Shown in pieces: positions 40,516 to 43,590 of a stretch of 64,000 nt of DNA. The notes under the pieces were generated by a model, which saw nothing but the letters and a program-made list of their open reading frames with translations, did not search any database and was not told the origin of the DNA. The translations under genes were made by a program, and so were the position numbers. The stretch's first letter is position 1, and every line of letters starts with the position of its first letter. The stretch lies in contig JABFRU010000002.1 in assembly GCA_013140985.1 (NCBI GenBank), positions 248,001 through 312,000 on the forward strand. Reading direction: 5' to 3'. Source of the DNA: Chitinophagaceae bacterium (GTDB lineage: Bacteria > Bacteroidota > Bacteroidia > Chitinophagales > Chitinophagaceae).

Positions 40516-41949
40516 ATGGAGAAGAATGCTGAAAAAGTTTGGACGAATTGTTTGAAGATCATCAATGACATTGTTGAAAGGCAGCATTACAAAACCTGGT
40601 TTGAACCCATCAAACCGGTTTCCCTAAAAAATAATGTACTCGTCATCCAGGTACCAAGCCAATTCTTTTTTGAGTACCTCGAAGAACATTACGTAAATTT
40701 ATTGGCAAAGACGTTGAAGAGAGAGTTGGGTAAAGATGCAAGATTGGAATATCGCATCATGGTGGATAGTGGTAACAGTAAGAACAAGCCTGTTACTATG
40801 GATGTAAGCGGACAAGGATTTAAAACATTTTCAAATAACGAAATGGATTTTCCATTAGTCATAAATAATCCTGTAAAGAATCCTTTTGTTATACCGGGGT
40901 TGAAGAAGATGCAGATTGACCCGCAGCTTAATCACATTTATACTTTTGAAGCATTTATTGAAGGCGATTGCAACAGGGTGGCCCGCCGGGCAGGAAAAAC
41001 GGTAGCTGAAAAGCCAGGCGCCAATTCCTTTAACCCTCTTGTTATATATGGAGGGGTTGGCCTGGGAAAGACACACCTGGCTCAAGCCATTGGCAATGAG
41101 GTGAAAAGGTCTAATCCCAATAAGGTGGTCCTTTATGTGAGTTCTGAAAAGTTCATCAACCAGTTCATGGATCATAGCCGCAATAATGCGATCAATGATT
41201 TTATCCATTTTTACCAACTTATCGATGTATTAATTATAGATGATGTTCAGTTCTTCGCCAAAGCGGAGAAATCACAGGATGCATTCTTTGCAATATTCAA
41301 TCACCTGCATCAATCAGGCAAACAACTGATATTAACTTCTGATAAACCACCGAAAGACCTCGAAGGGGTACAGGAAAGATTATTGAGTCGTTTCCGCTGG
41401 GGCTTAAGTGCCGACCTGCAGGTACCGGATTATGATACCCGTATCGATATACTGGAAAGGAAAATGAAGAATGATGGCCTGGAGATGCCCAAAGAAGTGG
41501 TGAAGTATATCGCATATAATATCAGTAACAATGTAAGAGAACTGGAAGGAGCTTTAATATCACTGTTGGCACAATCTTCGCTGAACAGGAGAGAGATCGA
41601 CCTCGATCTTGCTAAAAAAGTGCTACGCAATTTTGTAAAATCGTCCAGTAAAGAGATCACTATCGAAACCATTCAGCGAATGGTTTGCGAATACTTCGAT
41701 GTGCCTTACGATAAACTCCTGCAAAAGACCCGCAAGAGAGAGATCGTTCAGGCAAGACAAATTACTATGTATCTCGCCAAAGCATTTACCAAAAATTCAT
41801 TGAAAACGATCGGCGAACATTTCGGTGGCCGGGATCATACTACTGTTATTCATTCCTGTCAAACGGTAAAAGATCTGATGGATACCGATGGAGTGTTCAG
41901 AGAAAATGTACTTGAATTGCAACAGAAGGTTCAGTTAGCGGCGATGTAA
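40516..41949 (+). CDS. dnaA: Chromosomal replication initiator DnaA
   Basis: DnaA binds and melts the replication origin and loads the helicase. Domain I is at residues 1-85 (VWTNCLKIINDIVERQHYKTWF), followed by a variable linker. The AAA+ domain has Walker A GGVGLGKTH at about 178 and Walker B LIIDDVQFF at about 238, with arginine finger LLSRFRWGL. Domain IV ends in the DNA-binding helix-turn-helix (GGRDHTTVIHSC at about 436). The 477 residues are typical. No cluster of DnaA boxes is visible around the gene and dnaN does not follow, so this is not the usual dnaA-oriC-dnaN arrangement. A strong terminator lies right after the stop. Confidence 0.98.
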   Translation: MEKNAEKVWTNCLKIINDIVERQHYKTWFEPIKPVSLKNNVLVIQVPSQFFFEYLEEHYVNLLAKTLKRELGKDARLEYRIMVDSGNSKNKPVTMDVSGQGFKTFSNNEMDFPLVINNPVKNPFVIPGLKKMQIDPQLNHIYTFEAFIEGDCNRVARRAGKTVAEKPGANSFNPLVIYGGVGLGKTHLAQAIGNEVKRSNPNKVVLYVSSEKFINQFMDHSRNNAINDFIHFYQLIDVLIIDDVQFFAKAEKSQDAFFAIFNHLHQSGKQLILTSDKPPKDLEGVQERLLSRFRWGLSADLQVPDYDTRIDILERKMKNDGLEMPKEVVKYIAYNISNNVRELEGALISLLAQSSLNRREIDLDLAKKVLRNFVKSSSKEITIETIQRMVCEYFDVPYDKLLQKTRKREIVQARQITMYLAKAFTKNSLKTIGEHFGGRDHTTVIHSCQTVKDLMDTDGVFRENVLELQQKVQLAAM

Positions 41950-41972
41950 CAATTGGGCATTTATAATATTCG

Positions 41973-42019
41973 ATCCCAAATTCCAGGCGAAGTGGCTGGA
42001 ATTTGGGATTTGTTTTTTT
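41973..42019 (+). terminator. Strong rho-independent terminator after dnaA
   Basis: A 14-bp perfect stem ATCCCAAATTCCAG / CTGGAATTTGGGAT with a 9-base loop, followed by a run of T broken by one G. It lies 23 bases after the dnaA stop. Confidence 0.92.
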
Positions 42020-42040
42020 AGATTTCTAGCGAGTATTCTT

Positions 42041-42048
42041 TATTTTTG
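42041..42048 (+). promoter_or_regulatory. Predicted -7 element for tRNA-Ser
   Basis: TATTTTTG, an exact TAnnTTTG match, ends 9 bases before the tRNA-Ser gene. No well-spaced TTG box is present. Confidence 0.5.
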
Positions 42049-42057
42049 TCCCCCTTC

Positions 42058-42148
42058 GGAGAGGTGCCTGAGTGGCCGAAAGGGCCGGTTTGCTAAACCG
42101 TTGTACGAGCTTAAACTTGTACCGAGGGTTCGAATCCCTCCCTCTCCG
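42058..42148 (+). tRNA. tRNA-Ser(GCT)
   Basis: The 7-bp acceptor stem GGAGAGG / CCTCTCC, an anticodon loop TTGCTAA giving anticodon GCT (reads AGC and AGT), a long variable arm and a T-loop GGTTCGAATCC make a type II tRNA of 91 bases. CCA is not encoded. The terminator follows five bases later. Confidence 0.95.
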
Positions 42149-42152
42149 CTTC

Positions 42153-42200
42153 ACCCGCCATAGTCCCGCTACAAACGGGACGAAGGTGGGTTTTGTTTTT
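42153..42200 (+). terminator. Terminator of tRNA-Ser, containing a nested TAGTCCCG hairpin
   Basis: An outer stem CCCGCC (42154-42159) / GGTGGG (42185-42190) encloses an inner stem GTCCCG / CGGGAC (42163-42181), followed by TTTTGTTTTT. The inner hairpin resembles the GTCCCGCT / AGCGGGAC hairpins found in the tRNA-Pro-like sequences downstream. Confidence 0.75.
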
Positions 42201-42219
42201 ATACTATAGAGTAAGATAG

Positions 42220-42252
42220 TTGCGATAAATAGGGTAATAGCCGCTATATTTG
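42220..42252 (+). promoter_or_regulatory. Promoter for the tRNA-Pro region
   Basis: TTG (42220-42222), 22 bases, then TATATTTG (42245-42252) is a full match to the Bacteroidota promoter pattern. The expected transcription start falls just before the truncated tRNA-Pro-like copy at 42268, and the true tRNA-Pro begins 55 bases after the box. Confidence 0.65.
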
Positions 42253-42267
42253 CACTCCCAAAATGTT

Positions 42268-42303
42268 CGGGAAGTAGTCCCGCTGTTAGCGGGACATCTG
42301 ATT
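42268..42303 (+). pseudogene. Truncated tRNA-Pro-like 5' piece with hairpin D-arm
   Basis: CGGGAAGTA (42268-42276) repeats the first nine bases of the true tRNA-Pro, and TGTTCGGGAAGTAG (42264-42277) is a perfect 14-base repeat of 42303-42316. In place of the D-arm is a perfect 8-bp hairpin GTCCCGCT-gtt-AGCGGGAC (42277-42295), followed by ATCTGATTG, which resembles a degraded start of the anticodon arm. The rest of the tRNA is missing. Confidence 0.7.
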
Positions 42304-42306
42304 GTT

Positions 42307-42380
42307 CGGGAAGTAGCGCAGGCCGGTAGCGCACCTGGTTTGGGACCAGGGGGTCGCAGGTTCGAATCCTGTCTTCCCGA
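42307..42380 (+). tRNA. tRNA-Pro(TGG)
   Basis: A complete 74-base cloverleaf. Acceptor CGGGAAG / CTTCCCG, D-arm GCGC-aggccggta-GCGC, anticodon stem CCTGG / CCAGG with loop TTTGGGA (anticodon TGG), T-arm GCAGG-TTCGAAT-CCTGT, discriminator A. CCA is not encoded. Its last 50 bases (from 42331) and the next base are repeated exactly at 42683-42733. Confidence 0.97.
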
Positions 42381-42381
42381 C
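42331..42381 (+). repeat. 51-bp direct repeat, copy 1 (3' part of tRNA-Pro)
   Basis: From the last two bases of the D-stem through the discriminator base plus one, identical at every position to 42683-42733. The two copies bracket the GIY-YIG gene and the terminator before it. Confidence 0.95.
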
Positions 42382-42389
42382 TTAAGTTA

Positions 42390-42417
42390 AGTGACTCTGT
42401 AAAGAGTCACTTTTTTT
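42390..42417 (+). terminator. Terminator of tRNA-Pro, abutting the GIY-YIG ATG
   Basis: A 9-bp perfect stem AGTGACTCT / AGAGTCACT with a 4-base loop and a run of seven T. The T-run ends at 42417 and the nuclease start codon is 42418-42420. Confidence 0.92.
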
Positions 42418-42666
42418 ATGGCATATTATGTTTACATATTAAGAAGTAAAAAGGATAACAAGTATTATATCGGAAGTACATCTGATGTTCATGCCCGCTT
42501 GAATTTCCATAATGCAGGGTTACAACGATCGACTAAGAGTCGAGTTCCCTTTGAATTAGTATTAATTGAAGAATGGGATACAAAAGAAGAAGCTCTAAAA
42601 AGGGAAAAGCAAATTAAGAATTGGAAAGGTGGGGAAGCATTTCGAAAATTGATTGAAGGGAAGTAG
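42418..42666 (+). CDS. Small GIY-YIG family nuclease
   Basis: An 82-residue single-domain nuclease of the GIY-YIG superfamily (YhbQ/UPF0213-like size). The catalytic features are present: YVYILRS and YYIGST form the GIY and YIG elements, Arg27 in HARLNFHN, and a Glu in the EEALKREKQIKNW helix. Such domains cut DNA with a single metal ion. No DNA-binding extension is attached. The gene sits between a true tRNA-Pro and a tRNA-Pro-like copy; its last three codons GGG AAG TAG are the 5' end of that copy, so the stop codon is tRNA-derived. A terminator ends exactly at its ATG and no promoter is evident, so it may depend on read-through from the tRNA promoter. Confidence 0.92.
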   Translation: MAYYVYILRSKKDNKYYIGSTSDVHARLNFHNAGLQRSTKSRVPFELVLIEEWDTKEEALKREKQIKNWKGGEAFRKLIEGK

Positions 42667-42732
42667 CCCCGCCATCGGCGGGGCACCTGGTTTGGGACCA
42701 GGGGGTCGCAGGTTCGAATCCTGTCTTCCCGA
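42657..42732 (+). pseudogene. Full-length tRNA-Pro-like copy with D-arm replaced by a GC hairpin
   Basis: A 76-base tRNA-shaped sequence. GGGAAGTAGC (42658-42667) matches the 5' end of the true tRNA-Pro, and everything from 42683 on is identical to it, including anticodon TGG and the T-arm. The first acceptor pair is A-G instead of C-G. The D-arm is replaced by GCCCCGCC-atc-GGCGGGGC (42666-42684), a perfect 8-bp stem with a 3-base loop. Lacking the D-loop GG, it should not fold as a normal tRNA; it is probably non-functional or a mimic. Confidence 0.85.
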
Positions 42733-42733
42733 C
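42683..42733 (+). repeat. 51-bp direct repeat, copy 2
   Basis: Identical to 42331-42381, with no mismatch. It extends to one base past the tRNA discriminator; sequences diverge immediately on both sides (C versus G upstream, T versus A downstream). Confidence 0.95.
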
Positions 42734-42764
42734 AAAAGAGTCAAACAAATCGTCTGGCTCTTTT
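42734..42764 (+). terminator. Terminator after the tRNA-Pro-like copy
   Basis: AAAAGAG (42734-42740) pairs with CTCTTTT (42758-42764) around a 17-base loop, followed by CTATTT. It directly follows the tRNA-like copy. Confidence 0.65.
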
Positions 42765-42784
42765 CTATTTGAGGTCTTGCAAAC

Positions 42785-42816
42785 AAAAAAGCCAAACAAT
42801 AATGTTTGACTTTTTT
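42785..42816. terminator. Bidirectional terminator before the polysaccharide locus
   Basis: AAAAAAG-c-CAAAC pairs with GTTTG-a-CTTTTTT around a short loop, with A-tract and T-tract on the two sides. It can terminate both the tRNA side and the minus-strand sugar transferase gene ending at 42847. Confidence 0.85.
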
Positions 42817-42846
42817 CACTGTTCGAAGGCAAGAAAAAAAGCATGT

Positions 42847-43590
42847 TTATTCGGAAAGTTCAGGCCTTTGTGTTTCTGTAATTTTTTTAGATCGACCAGT
42901 GAACAATGTTTTAATGTTCTGCAGCATTTGTAATATAGTGACACCAGTAATACGCAGGTCCAACCAGAGGTTAGCTTTTCGAACATATTGTGCATCCCAA
43001 TAATAGCGAAGACTGATGCTTTCATAATCGGAAGTGGGGCCATGAAATCCATTTACCTGTGCCCACCCGGTTATACCCGGTCTCATCAGGCTGCGGAACT
43101 GGTACGAATGAATCACAAAAGAAAAACGGATGCAATCAGCCAGCATATGCGGCCTCGGACCTACCACACTCATCTGTCCTGCAAATACATTTAAGAATTG
43201 AGGCAATTCATCAATATTGATCCGGCGAAGTATTTTTCCTGTTTTAGTGATCCTGTCATCATTTACTTCAGCAGGCCGTTCATCTGCTTCCTTATTTTGG
43301 ATCATTGTCCGGAATTTGATACACATAAATGATCTCCCATTTCTGCCGATCCTTTTTTGACGAAAAAAAACAGGTCCGCGGGAATCTAATTTAATAGCCA
43401 GTGCCACCAATGGTAGCAGCCAGCTCATCAGCAACAAAATAACAAGCGATGAAAAGAAAACATCAAAGCAGCGCTTAAAGAAAAGATACTTTTTCCGGCT
43501 GGCAACGAAGCTGCGGATAATGCCGTTTTGGGTAATAACATGCCAGCTGGTTTCGGGAGACGTTTGTAAGTTGGTATGACGACTGGTCAT
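42847..43590 (-). CDS. Undecaprenyl-phosphate sugar-1-phosphate transferase
   Basis: A 247-residue member of the bacterial sugar transferase family (PF02397), which starts polysaccharide synthesis by transferring a sugar-1-phosphate to undecaprenyl phosphate. KRCFDVFFSSLVILLLM is the opening membrane helix, followed by GPVFFRQKRIGRNGRSF, CIKFRTM, the catalytic RRINIDELPQFLNVFAGQMSVVGPRP region split across the sequence, and the late RPGITGWAQVNG. The short form has only the catalytic domain and one membrane helix. ATG at 43590 is chosen over GTG at 43596. It is the first visible gene of the locus and divergent from the nucleotidyltransferase gene. Confidence 0.93.
   Translation of the reverse strand: MTSRHTNLQTSPETSWHVITQNGIIRSFVASRKKYLFFKRCFDVFFSSLVILLLMSWLLPLVALAIKLDSRGPVFFRQKRIGRNGRSFMCIKFRTMIQNKEADERPAEVNDDRITKTGKILRRINIDELPQFLNVFAGQMSVVGPRPHMLADCIRFSFVIHSYQFRSLMRPGITGWAQVNGFHGPTSDYESISLRYYWDAQYVRKANLWLDLRITGVTILQMLQNIKTLFTGRSKKITETQRPELSE

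Follow-up and report, generated by a model that had tools for sequence, protein, structure and literature searches.

Between a tRNA-Pro gene and a second, altered tRNA-Pro in the 64,000-nucleotide stretch of Chitinophagaceae DNA analysed here (the window) lies a gene for a small GIY-YIG nuclease. This arrangement raises the question of whether the nuclease gene and the tRNA copies belong to a single mobile unit and, if so, how a unit without an integrase could come to inhabit a tRNA gene.

The tRNA-Pro locus and its nuclease

The locus lies on the + strand behind dnaA, where a tRNA-Ser gene (42058-42149) is followed by a tRNA-Pro remnant, an intact tRNA-Pro, a terminator, the nuclease gene and the second tRNA-Pro. 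The features of window positions 42264-42766 are as follows:

42264..42302, + strand: left mock-tRNA remnant, a truncated third tRNA-Pro copy (repeat comparison)
42307..42381, + strand: intact tRNA-Pro, anticodon TGG (ARAGORN; Rfam tRNA, 66.3 bits)
42389..42417, + strand: terminator of the intact tRNA-Pro, 10-bp stem and T-run (z -5.0)
42418..42666, + strand: single-domain GIY-YIG nuclease gene, 82 aa (ORF; Pfam)
42657..42733, + strand: right mock tRNA, the second tRNA-Pro(tgg) copy with its D arm swapped for a hairpin (ARAGORN; Rfam tRNA, 50.6 bits)
42667..42683, + strand: 17-nt hairpin CCCCGCCATCGGCGGGG in place of the D arm of the right mock tRNA
42734..42766, + strand: second terminator, 3' of the right mock tRNA (z -4.5)

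All the features from which the earlier note had started are present. A terminator and a complete GIY-YIG gene are bracketed by a 51-bp perfect direct repeat of the tRNA-Pro 3' part (42331-42381 and 42683-42733), itself nested in a longer 63-bp, 92% repeat with a spacing of 352 bp; the nuclease's ATG lies directly 3' of the T-run of the first terminator, and its stop codon is formed within the second tRNA copy, of which TAG (42664-42666) makes up nucleotides 8-10. The alteration that had been seen in this second copy turns out to be the replacement of the D arm by the 17-nt hairpin, despite which the predicted cloverleaf fold is retained (MFE -42.6 kcal/mol, z -4.0). In the left remnant, the tRNA-Pro 5' end CGGGAAGTAG (42268-42277) is followed by the hairpin TCCCGCTGTTAGCGGGA (42278-42294), which replaces the D arm, and then by a decayed 5' strand of the anticodon stem; its TGTTCGGGAAGTAG recurs at 42303-42316, and the remnant was not found in the leaders of the same-genus loci L064, L065 and L068. 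A hairpin pattern derived from the window matched it 4 times (two hairpins, on both strands each), compared to 0.00 times in 100 shuffles. Because an identical layout recurs at the genome's other two nuclease matches, the layout in the window is not due to chance. By analogy with the G130/G040 pair described below, the second terminator would represent the original downstream flank of the tRNA gene into which the unit inserted. The terminator region of the neighbouring tRNA-Ser (window 42150-42200) seems to hold a hairpin of the same type as those of the mock tRNAs, TCCCGCTACAAACGGGA, within an outer stem.

The nuclease matches the Pfam GIY-YIG domain (PF01541) with an E-value of 6.3e-20 over residues 3-71 of its 82 and is, judging from this alignment, little more than a catalytic domain. 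Residues Y6, Y17, G19, R27 and E63, whose catalytic role is known from I-TevI, are invariant in six relatives. Of the solved structures, UPF0213 BH0048 is closest to it in sequence (57 bits), and an AlphaFold2 model (pLDDT 83.7) has UPF0213 BH0048 and SLX1, followed by I-TevI, as nearest folds, so that both domain and predicted fold assign the protein to the GIY-YIG superfamily. Among 16 sequence pairs tried, 5 were saturated and 11 measurable; dN/dS was 0.07-0.22 in 9 of these 11, and 0.33 and 0.55 in two low-difference pairs, values that indicate purifying selection.

Between the two tRNA-Pro copies, the only + strand ORF of at least 60 aa is the nuclease itself, with no integrase, and an integrase-type element was ruled out on the grounds that neither this 352-bp spacing nor a 345-bp unit found in a relative has room for an integrase gene. 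The nuclease was also rejected as an intron-borne homing endonuclease, since Rfam returned no group I intron family for window positions 41900-42900 at E up to 1 and the NCBIfam group I intron endonuclease model scored 22.5 bits, below its cutoff of 56.05.

Empty sites, filled sites and spread

The window's genome contains three matches to the nuclease at E up to 10, all at tRNA genes. The three copies follow tRNA-Pro, tRNA-Lys and tRNA-Arg, and tRNA sequence is repeated behind each nuclease; at the tRNA-Arg locus, the second copy has TCCCGCTTCTGGCGGGA where its anticodon arm should be, and upstream there is one more copy, which contains TCCCGTTTAATAGCGGGA. Elsewhere in the genome there are two tRNA-Pro matches, tRNA-Pro(cgg) and tRNA-Pro(ggg), and another full tRNA-Arg match with anticodon acg; there is no other full match to tRNA-Lys. 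Hairpins of the YCCC...GGGR type occur in this genome also away from called tRNAs.

What an unoccupied site looks like was established by comparison with relatives lacking the nuclease. At the tRNA-Arg(tct) of genome G130 (L135), two identical 345-bp units, each running from the tRNA 3' part through a terminator, the nuclease and AGAGCA to the hairpin TCCCGATCTGAATCGGGA, are followed by the displaced native tRNA 3' part. In the congeneric G040 (L338), which has no nuclease match, both flanks are contiguous (identity to G130 of 77% over 1102 columns and 84% over 978) and overlap by 42 nt, 31 of which belong to the tRNA 3' end. The restored tRNA-Arg of G130 and the native one of G040 are identical at every position, and at the level of sequence the two loci are a clean pair of empty and filled sites. 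These comparisons support the proposal made in the earlier note of a mobile unit at tRNA genes that duplicates part of the tRNA and carries a small nuclease and no integrase.

Within the window's genus, occupancy is patchy. The nuclease is found at 2 of 30 fetched tRNA-Pro(TGG) loci (L063 and L072, the window's included) and at 2 of 30 tRNA-Lys loci (L307 and L326, the window genome's own included), where five of the tRNA-Pro and three of the tRNA-Lys loci are short and a few absences are unsure; a truncated nuclease copy and a remnant lie at L072 and L066. At tRNA-Lys, the window's genome carries a T-arm element and G160 (L326) an anticodon-arm element with a different nuclease. Among 30 same-genus glycosylase/tRNA-Arg loci, a full nuclease is present only in the window genome's own (L153), and an 18-codon nuclease match beside the glycosylase gene at a contig start (L165 16-69, G157:C4) may stem from a tRNA-Arg element of another congeneric genome, cut off by the contig end. 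At the window genome's tRNA-Arg, 18 of 23 relatives have a 5' flank closer to that of the left mock copy, in support of the insertion model set out below; the 3' flank, with 11 of 23 relatives, does not decide between the sides. In the G007/G107 pair, the 5' flank was matched at 79% to a nuclease-free tRNA-Arg in G107 and a match to the 3' flank was not found. G066/G146 gives no empty site, since G146 also has nuclease matches next to the matched flank.

A second clean pair, L162 (G149) and L163 (G172), shares the same tRNA-Arg(tct) and differs by an insertion of ~160 bp without nuclease. Similar nuclease-free insertions lie behind tRNA-Pro in L087 and L089, with similar motifs in L074, L075 and L081; they measure ~100-160 bp, sit between the tRNA and a duplicated tRNA 3' end, in some cases contain GCAAGCTTGC palindromes, and possibly represent a separate non-autonomous family. 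The mobile-element idea had been tied in the earlier note to two expectations, of which the first, that empty sites exist, stands. The second was that tRNA duplications would go with the nuclease, and the contrary case, which the note took as speaking against the idea, does occur: nuclease-free tRNA-end duplications or hairpin-swapped fragments occur in L071, L073, L162, L321, L323 and some other loci, which we tentatively read as decayed or non-autonomous relatives.

The nuclease is matched in 96 of 147 genomes of the host family at E up to 0.001; cultured carriers include Terrimonas ferruginea DSM 30193 (L220) and Flavisolibacter ginsengisoli DSM 18119 (L218). For 93 loci taken from the best-scoring listed matches, the rule applied was a same-strand ARAGORN tRNA within 300 nt; 79 passed, the tRNA standing before the nuclease in 65 (layout A) and after it in 14 (layout B), with the mock copy being the chosen tRNA in a few loci, such as L034. 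Two of these 93 loci were duplicates and another had come from a tRNA search; with all three left out, the figure is 76 of 90 distinct loci. The 14 family loci without a called tRNA consist of 9 with tRNA fragments, 3 from a separate GIY-YIG clade and 2 with neither. With another nuclease of the class as query, a phylum-wide search gave matches in 181 of 395 genomes (E up to 1e-5), and 22 of 30 loci passed the tRNA rule, one of the 30 repeating the window genome's tRNA-Lys locus. A genome-wide scan returned 446 relatives, and the tRNA rule (same strand, within 300 nt) was passed by 68 of the best 80; the tRNA-associated loci among these best 80 of 446 carry 22 NCBI phylum-rank names, many of them Patescibacteria candidate phyla, and include 20 of 26 from Bacteroidota, 5 of 5 from Omnitrophota, 5 of 5 from Chloroflexota and 3 of 3 from Fidelibacterota. 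The link between small GIY-YIG genes and nearby tRNAs, for which such a search had been suggested, was recovered in the family set and in the scan alike.

Control GIY-YIG proteins (L117, L132 and L144) form a clade apart from the tRNA-linked nucleases (support 100/99), and no tRNA was present in the fetched stretch at any of 9 distinct loci of this clade. We regard it as UPF0213-like; Pfam and NCBIfam gave the UPF0213 name to neither of the two control proteins tested (L117 and L144). Carriage by phages or plasmids was dropped, as tblastn of the window nuclease gave 8 phage and 22 plasmid records that were all below 60% identical and the five fetched plasmid-borne homologues had no tRNA within 1.5 kb (0/5).

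Hairpin-swapped tRNA copies and the nucleases beside them

Extra tRNA copies near the nuclease often have an arm exchanged for a hairpin or a loop invaded by one. From 48 loci, 78 inserts of 12-30 nt were collected in tRNA copies, other far-side copies being plain truncations. A stem of at least 5 bp is present in 51 of the 78 inserts, compared to 5.6 expected by shuffling, and 23 of 74 distinct locus-insert pairs start with YCCC and end with GGGR, compared to 0.02 expected. In the 17 loci with a break on both sides, the left and right tRNA positions coincide in 11 (shuffle mean 4.8) and differ in 6, an agreement of 11 being reached by 2 of 2000 shuffles. Of the 66 loci of the named set that could be laid out (32 in layout A, 34 in layout B), 54 have a tRNA fragment on the nuclease's far side, compared to 8 of 66 in a control stretch, and the nuclease stop is inside the downstream tRNA in 19 of the 34 layout-B loci of this set.

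At tRNA-Pro, tandem arrays of 45- or 47-nt units adjoin the tRNA in L069 (1570-1721) and L072 (1260-1500); each unit is a tRNA fragment with its T arm or D arm swapped for a hairpin and contains no nuclease. The array of L072 is upstream of its tRNA, and in L069 the contig breaks off 146 nt past the tRNA.

On a tree of 86 nucleases, 73 carrying an isotype label, the isotype changes 19 times, or 20 times with the tRNA-overlapping C-terminus trimmed, compared to a shuffle mean of 47.9 and a minimum of 41 in 500 shuffles. Arm labels, available for 64 rows and in one case set by hand, change 14 times (shuffle mean 26.5, minimum 21 of 500). The sequence tree thus shows that nuclease clade follows tRNA isotype and arm. 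A clade ending in KKLKNL...FIxKYS is found at the T arms of tRNA-Lys, -Leu, -Asp and -Val (six labelled rows), and this spread over several isotypes is what would be expected if the nuclease reads the near-universal T arm. Host genus leaves no signal on the tree (61 changes compared to a shuffle mean of 60.9, 72 rows), a weak sign of horizontal movement, as the test is confounded because same-genus rows are mostly at different tRNAs; vertical descent at one tRNA could be another cause of the grouping by isotype.

The tRNAs themselves vary unevenly. In 24 same-genus tRNA-Arg(TCT) genes, the anticodon stem varies at 8 of 10 positions (mean minor-allele share 0.22), the T stem at 4 of 10 (0.06) and the acceptor at 3 of 14 (0.03), with no variation in the D stem, anticodon loop or T loop. 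In 24 tRNA-Pro(TGG) genes, the D stem varies at 5 of 8 positions (0.17), mainly through one alternative allele, the acceptor at 2 of 14 and the D loop at 1 of 8, with no variation in the anticodon and T arms. The most variable arms, the Arg anticodon stem and the Pro D stem, are the arms hit by the elements of the window's genome, in a comparison of two cases without a neutral control (loci L063-L092 and L153-L182).

A candidate homing-type element and its alternatives

The anatomy, the filled and empty sites, both layouts, the hairpin-swapped arms and the dependence of nuclease clade on arm and isotype are all directly legible in the sequences. We consider it likely that they reflect a minimal mobile element of tRNA genes, of ~350 bp per unit, which spreads by a homing-type process in which a mock tRNA guides repair and the tRNA is regenerated. 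Its unit would consist of a stand-alone GIY-YIG endonuclease gene, a terminator and the mock tRNA, that is, tRNA sequence in which a short GC-rich hairpin takes the place of the D, anticodon or T arm. The nuclease would cut a chromosomal tRNA gene in or next to the matching arm; the element itself would stay uncut there because its mock tRNA is without that arm, and the tRNA parts beside the hairpin would match the broken ends, allowing recombination repair to insert the unit. A crossover in the 3' half would yield layout A (intact tRNA, nuclease, mock tRNA) and one in the 5' half layout B (mock tRNA, nuclease, intact tRNA). Either would regenerate a working tRNA, so that the element could inhabit tRNA genes lacking a second copy. 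As the regenerated target would permit repeated insertion, tandem arrays would follow.

Several findings speak against the homing model. The mock tRNA lacks the arm thought to be cut, but the restored tRNA retains it unchanged, and at the window's tRNA-Pro the genus's most frequent allele is present (15 of 30 loci), which leaves self-protection unexplained. Further points are the nuclease-free tRNA-end duplications, the undecided 3' flank at the window genome's tRNA-Arg, the 6 of 17 loci in which left and right breaks differ, and the restriction of inserts of 12-30 nt to 48 loci. Low expression by read-through of the tRNA terminator would be one possible way in which harm to the host is avoided. 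A 'cleave and rescue' scheme with a recoded rescue tRNA was considered and is not supported, since the restored tRNA equals the native one. REP/RAYT-like mobility through a GTAG foot by the hairpin was likewise dropped, because elsewhere the hairpin replaces anticodon or T arms without a GTAG foot.

The closest known system, by analogy, appears to be SegB, a GIY-YIG homing endonuclease of phage T6. As described in PMC13096335, SegB cuts inside tRNA genes, prefers the site RAWTSGAAC, co-localises with tRNAs in phages and drives tandem amplification of a tRNA segment with the aid of recombination genes. By our own reading, the complement of that site, GTTCSAWTY, resembles the T loop. According to PMC2988022, the genes of free-standing enzymes are intergenic and the sites that they cut lie at a distance from them; the phylogenomics of GIY-YIG proteins is the subject of PMC1564403. 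Like SegB and the free-standing GIY-YIG enzymes of T-even phages, the elements described here have a nuclease gene that comes without intron or integrase and stands beside tRNAs of many isotypes. Unlike SegB, they are chromosomal, encode a nuclease of ~80 aa, are fused into tRNA sequence and have a hairpin-swapped tRNA copy with the tRNA regenerated alongside; phage enzymes of the SegB type are larger than ~80 aa. Tyrosine-integrase elements (genomic islands and satellites) also insert at tRNA genes, duplicate one tRNA end and restore the tRNA, but the present units measure ~350 bp without an integrase, and their breakpoints are at the D, anticodon and T arms, often with hairpins. Group I introns that encode GIY-YIG homing endonucleases likewise tie such an enzyme to a tRNA gene, whereas no spliced intron interrupts the window's tRNA, which is present as an intact copy next to a displaced one. 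REP/RAYT, mitochondrial GC clusters and other mobile palindromes are short GC-rich hairpins, dispersed and tandemly repeated; here, in contrast, the hairpins replace tRNA arms or invade loops and come with a GIY-YIG gene rather than a Y1 transposase. A limited search of open-licence PMC papers found no description of a tRNA-nested layout with a hairpin-swapped mock tRNA. It is quite possible, and we put this more tentatively than the homing-type reading itself, that these are undescribed and widespread minimal elements of essential tRNA genes, found under more than 20 phylum-rank names, with an arm-matched nuclease and an uncuttable, regenerating mock tRNA that provides both homologies for repair, so that a single recombination rule would produce both layouts and the arrays. 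On this reading, repeated invasion may even drive rapid change in the targeted arms, such as the anticodon stem of tRNA-Arg and the D stem of tRNA-Pro.

The most serious alternative is local tandem duplication, in which unequal crossing over or break-induced amplification would carry the nuclease along and palindromes would later disable the spare tRNAs, with no homing between genomes. Tandem arrays are indeed frequent, with 2-4 nuclease matches per locus (e.g., L034, L062, L106, L108 and L139), and the small nuclease-free hairpin arrays of L072 and L069 and the YCCC...GGGR-type hairpins away from called tRNAs would fit such a process, as would the SegB-driven segmental amplification documented in PMC13096335. 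However, local duplication leaves unexplained how the nuclease arrived at so many different tRNAs, and it accounts neither for the match between nuclease clade and arm and the agreement of left and right breakpoints nor for the 22 phylum-rank names among the best 80 of 446 relatives; we hold it to be unlikely.

A toxin-antitoxin or regulatory pair, in which the nuclease would act on tRNA (or DNA), the mock tRNA would be a decoy or antitoxin RNA and the tRNA neighbourhood would serve as promoter, seems to us improbable. The stable cloverleaf predicted for the window's mock tRNA would suit it, and the nuclease start close behind the tRNA terminator (a run of at least 4 T within 12 nt of the nuclease ATG in 40 of 58 layout-A loci) makes expression by read-through plausible, but many mock tRNAs are truncated, they may precede or follow the nuclease, the arm that is swapped differs between them, and nuclease-free and repeated copies exist. 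To our knowledge, moreover, the characterised GIY-YIG enzymes act on DNA. A host housekeeping nuclease of SLX1/UPF0213 type, co-transcribed with tRNAs by chance and maintaining tRNA genes or replication forks, agrees with the nearest solved structures by sequence and fold, but it is very hard to reconcile with a gene that is patchy within one genus, is truncated or reduced to a remnant in L072 and L066 and occurs in tandem copies.

Should the homing-type reading be true, many bacterial genomes would harbour homing-type parasites of ~350 bp in their tRNA genes, taken for small GIY-YIG nuclease genes and peculiar additional tRNA copies, and these would be an example of a selfish element that needs neither intron nor integrase to live within an essential RNA gene. 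Such elements would provide a ready set of nucleases, each addressing a given tRNA arm, would explain tRNA pseudogenes and doubtful tRNA calls, and would make the influence of selfish nucleases on tRNA sequence evolution testable.

ARAGORN labels mock tRNAs as tRNA-Stop(tta) or tRNA-Glu(ttc) in L054 (1393-1466 and 2375-2449) and L073 (1787-1865), and elements of this kind may be a source of false or misassigned tRNA annotations. In L023 (G000:C51:152776), a TCCCGCC...GGCGGGA hairpin lies inside what appears to be another structured RNA gene.
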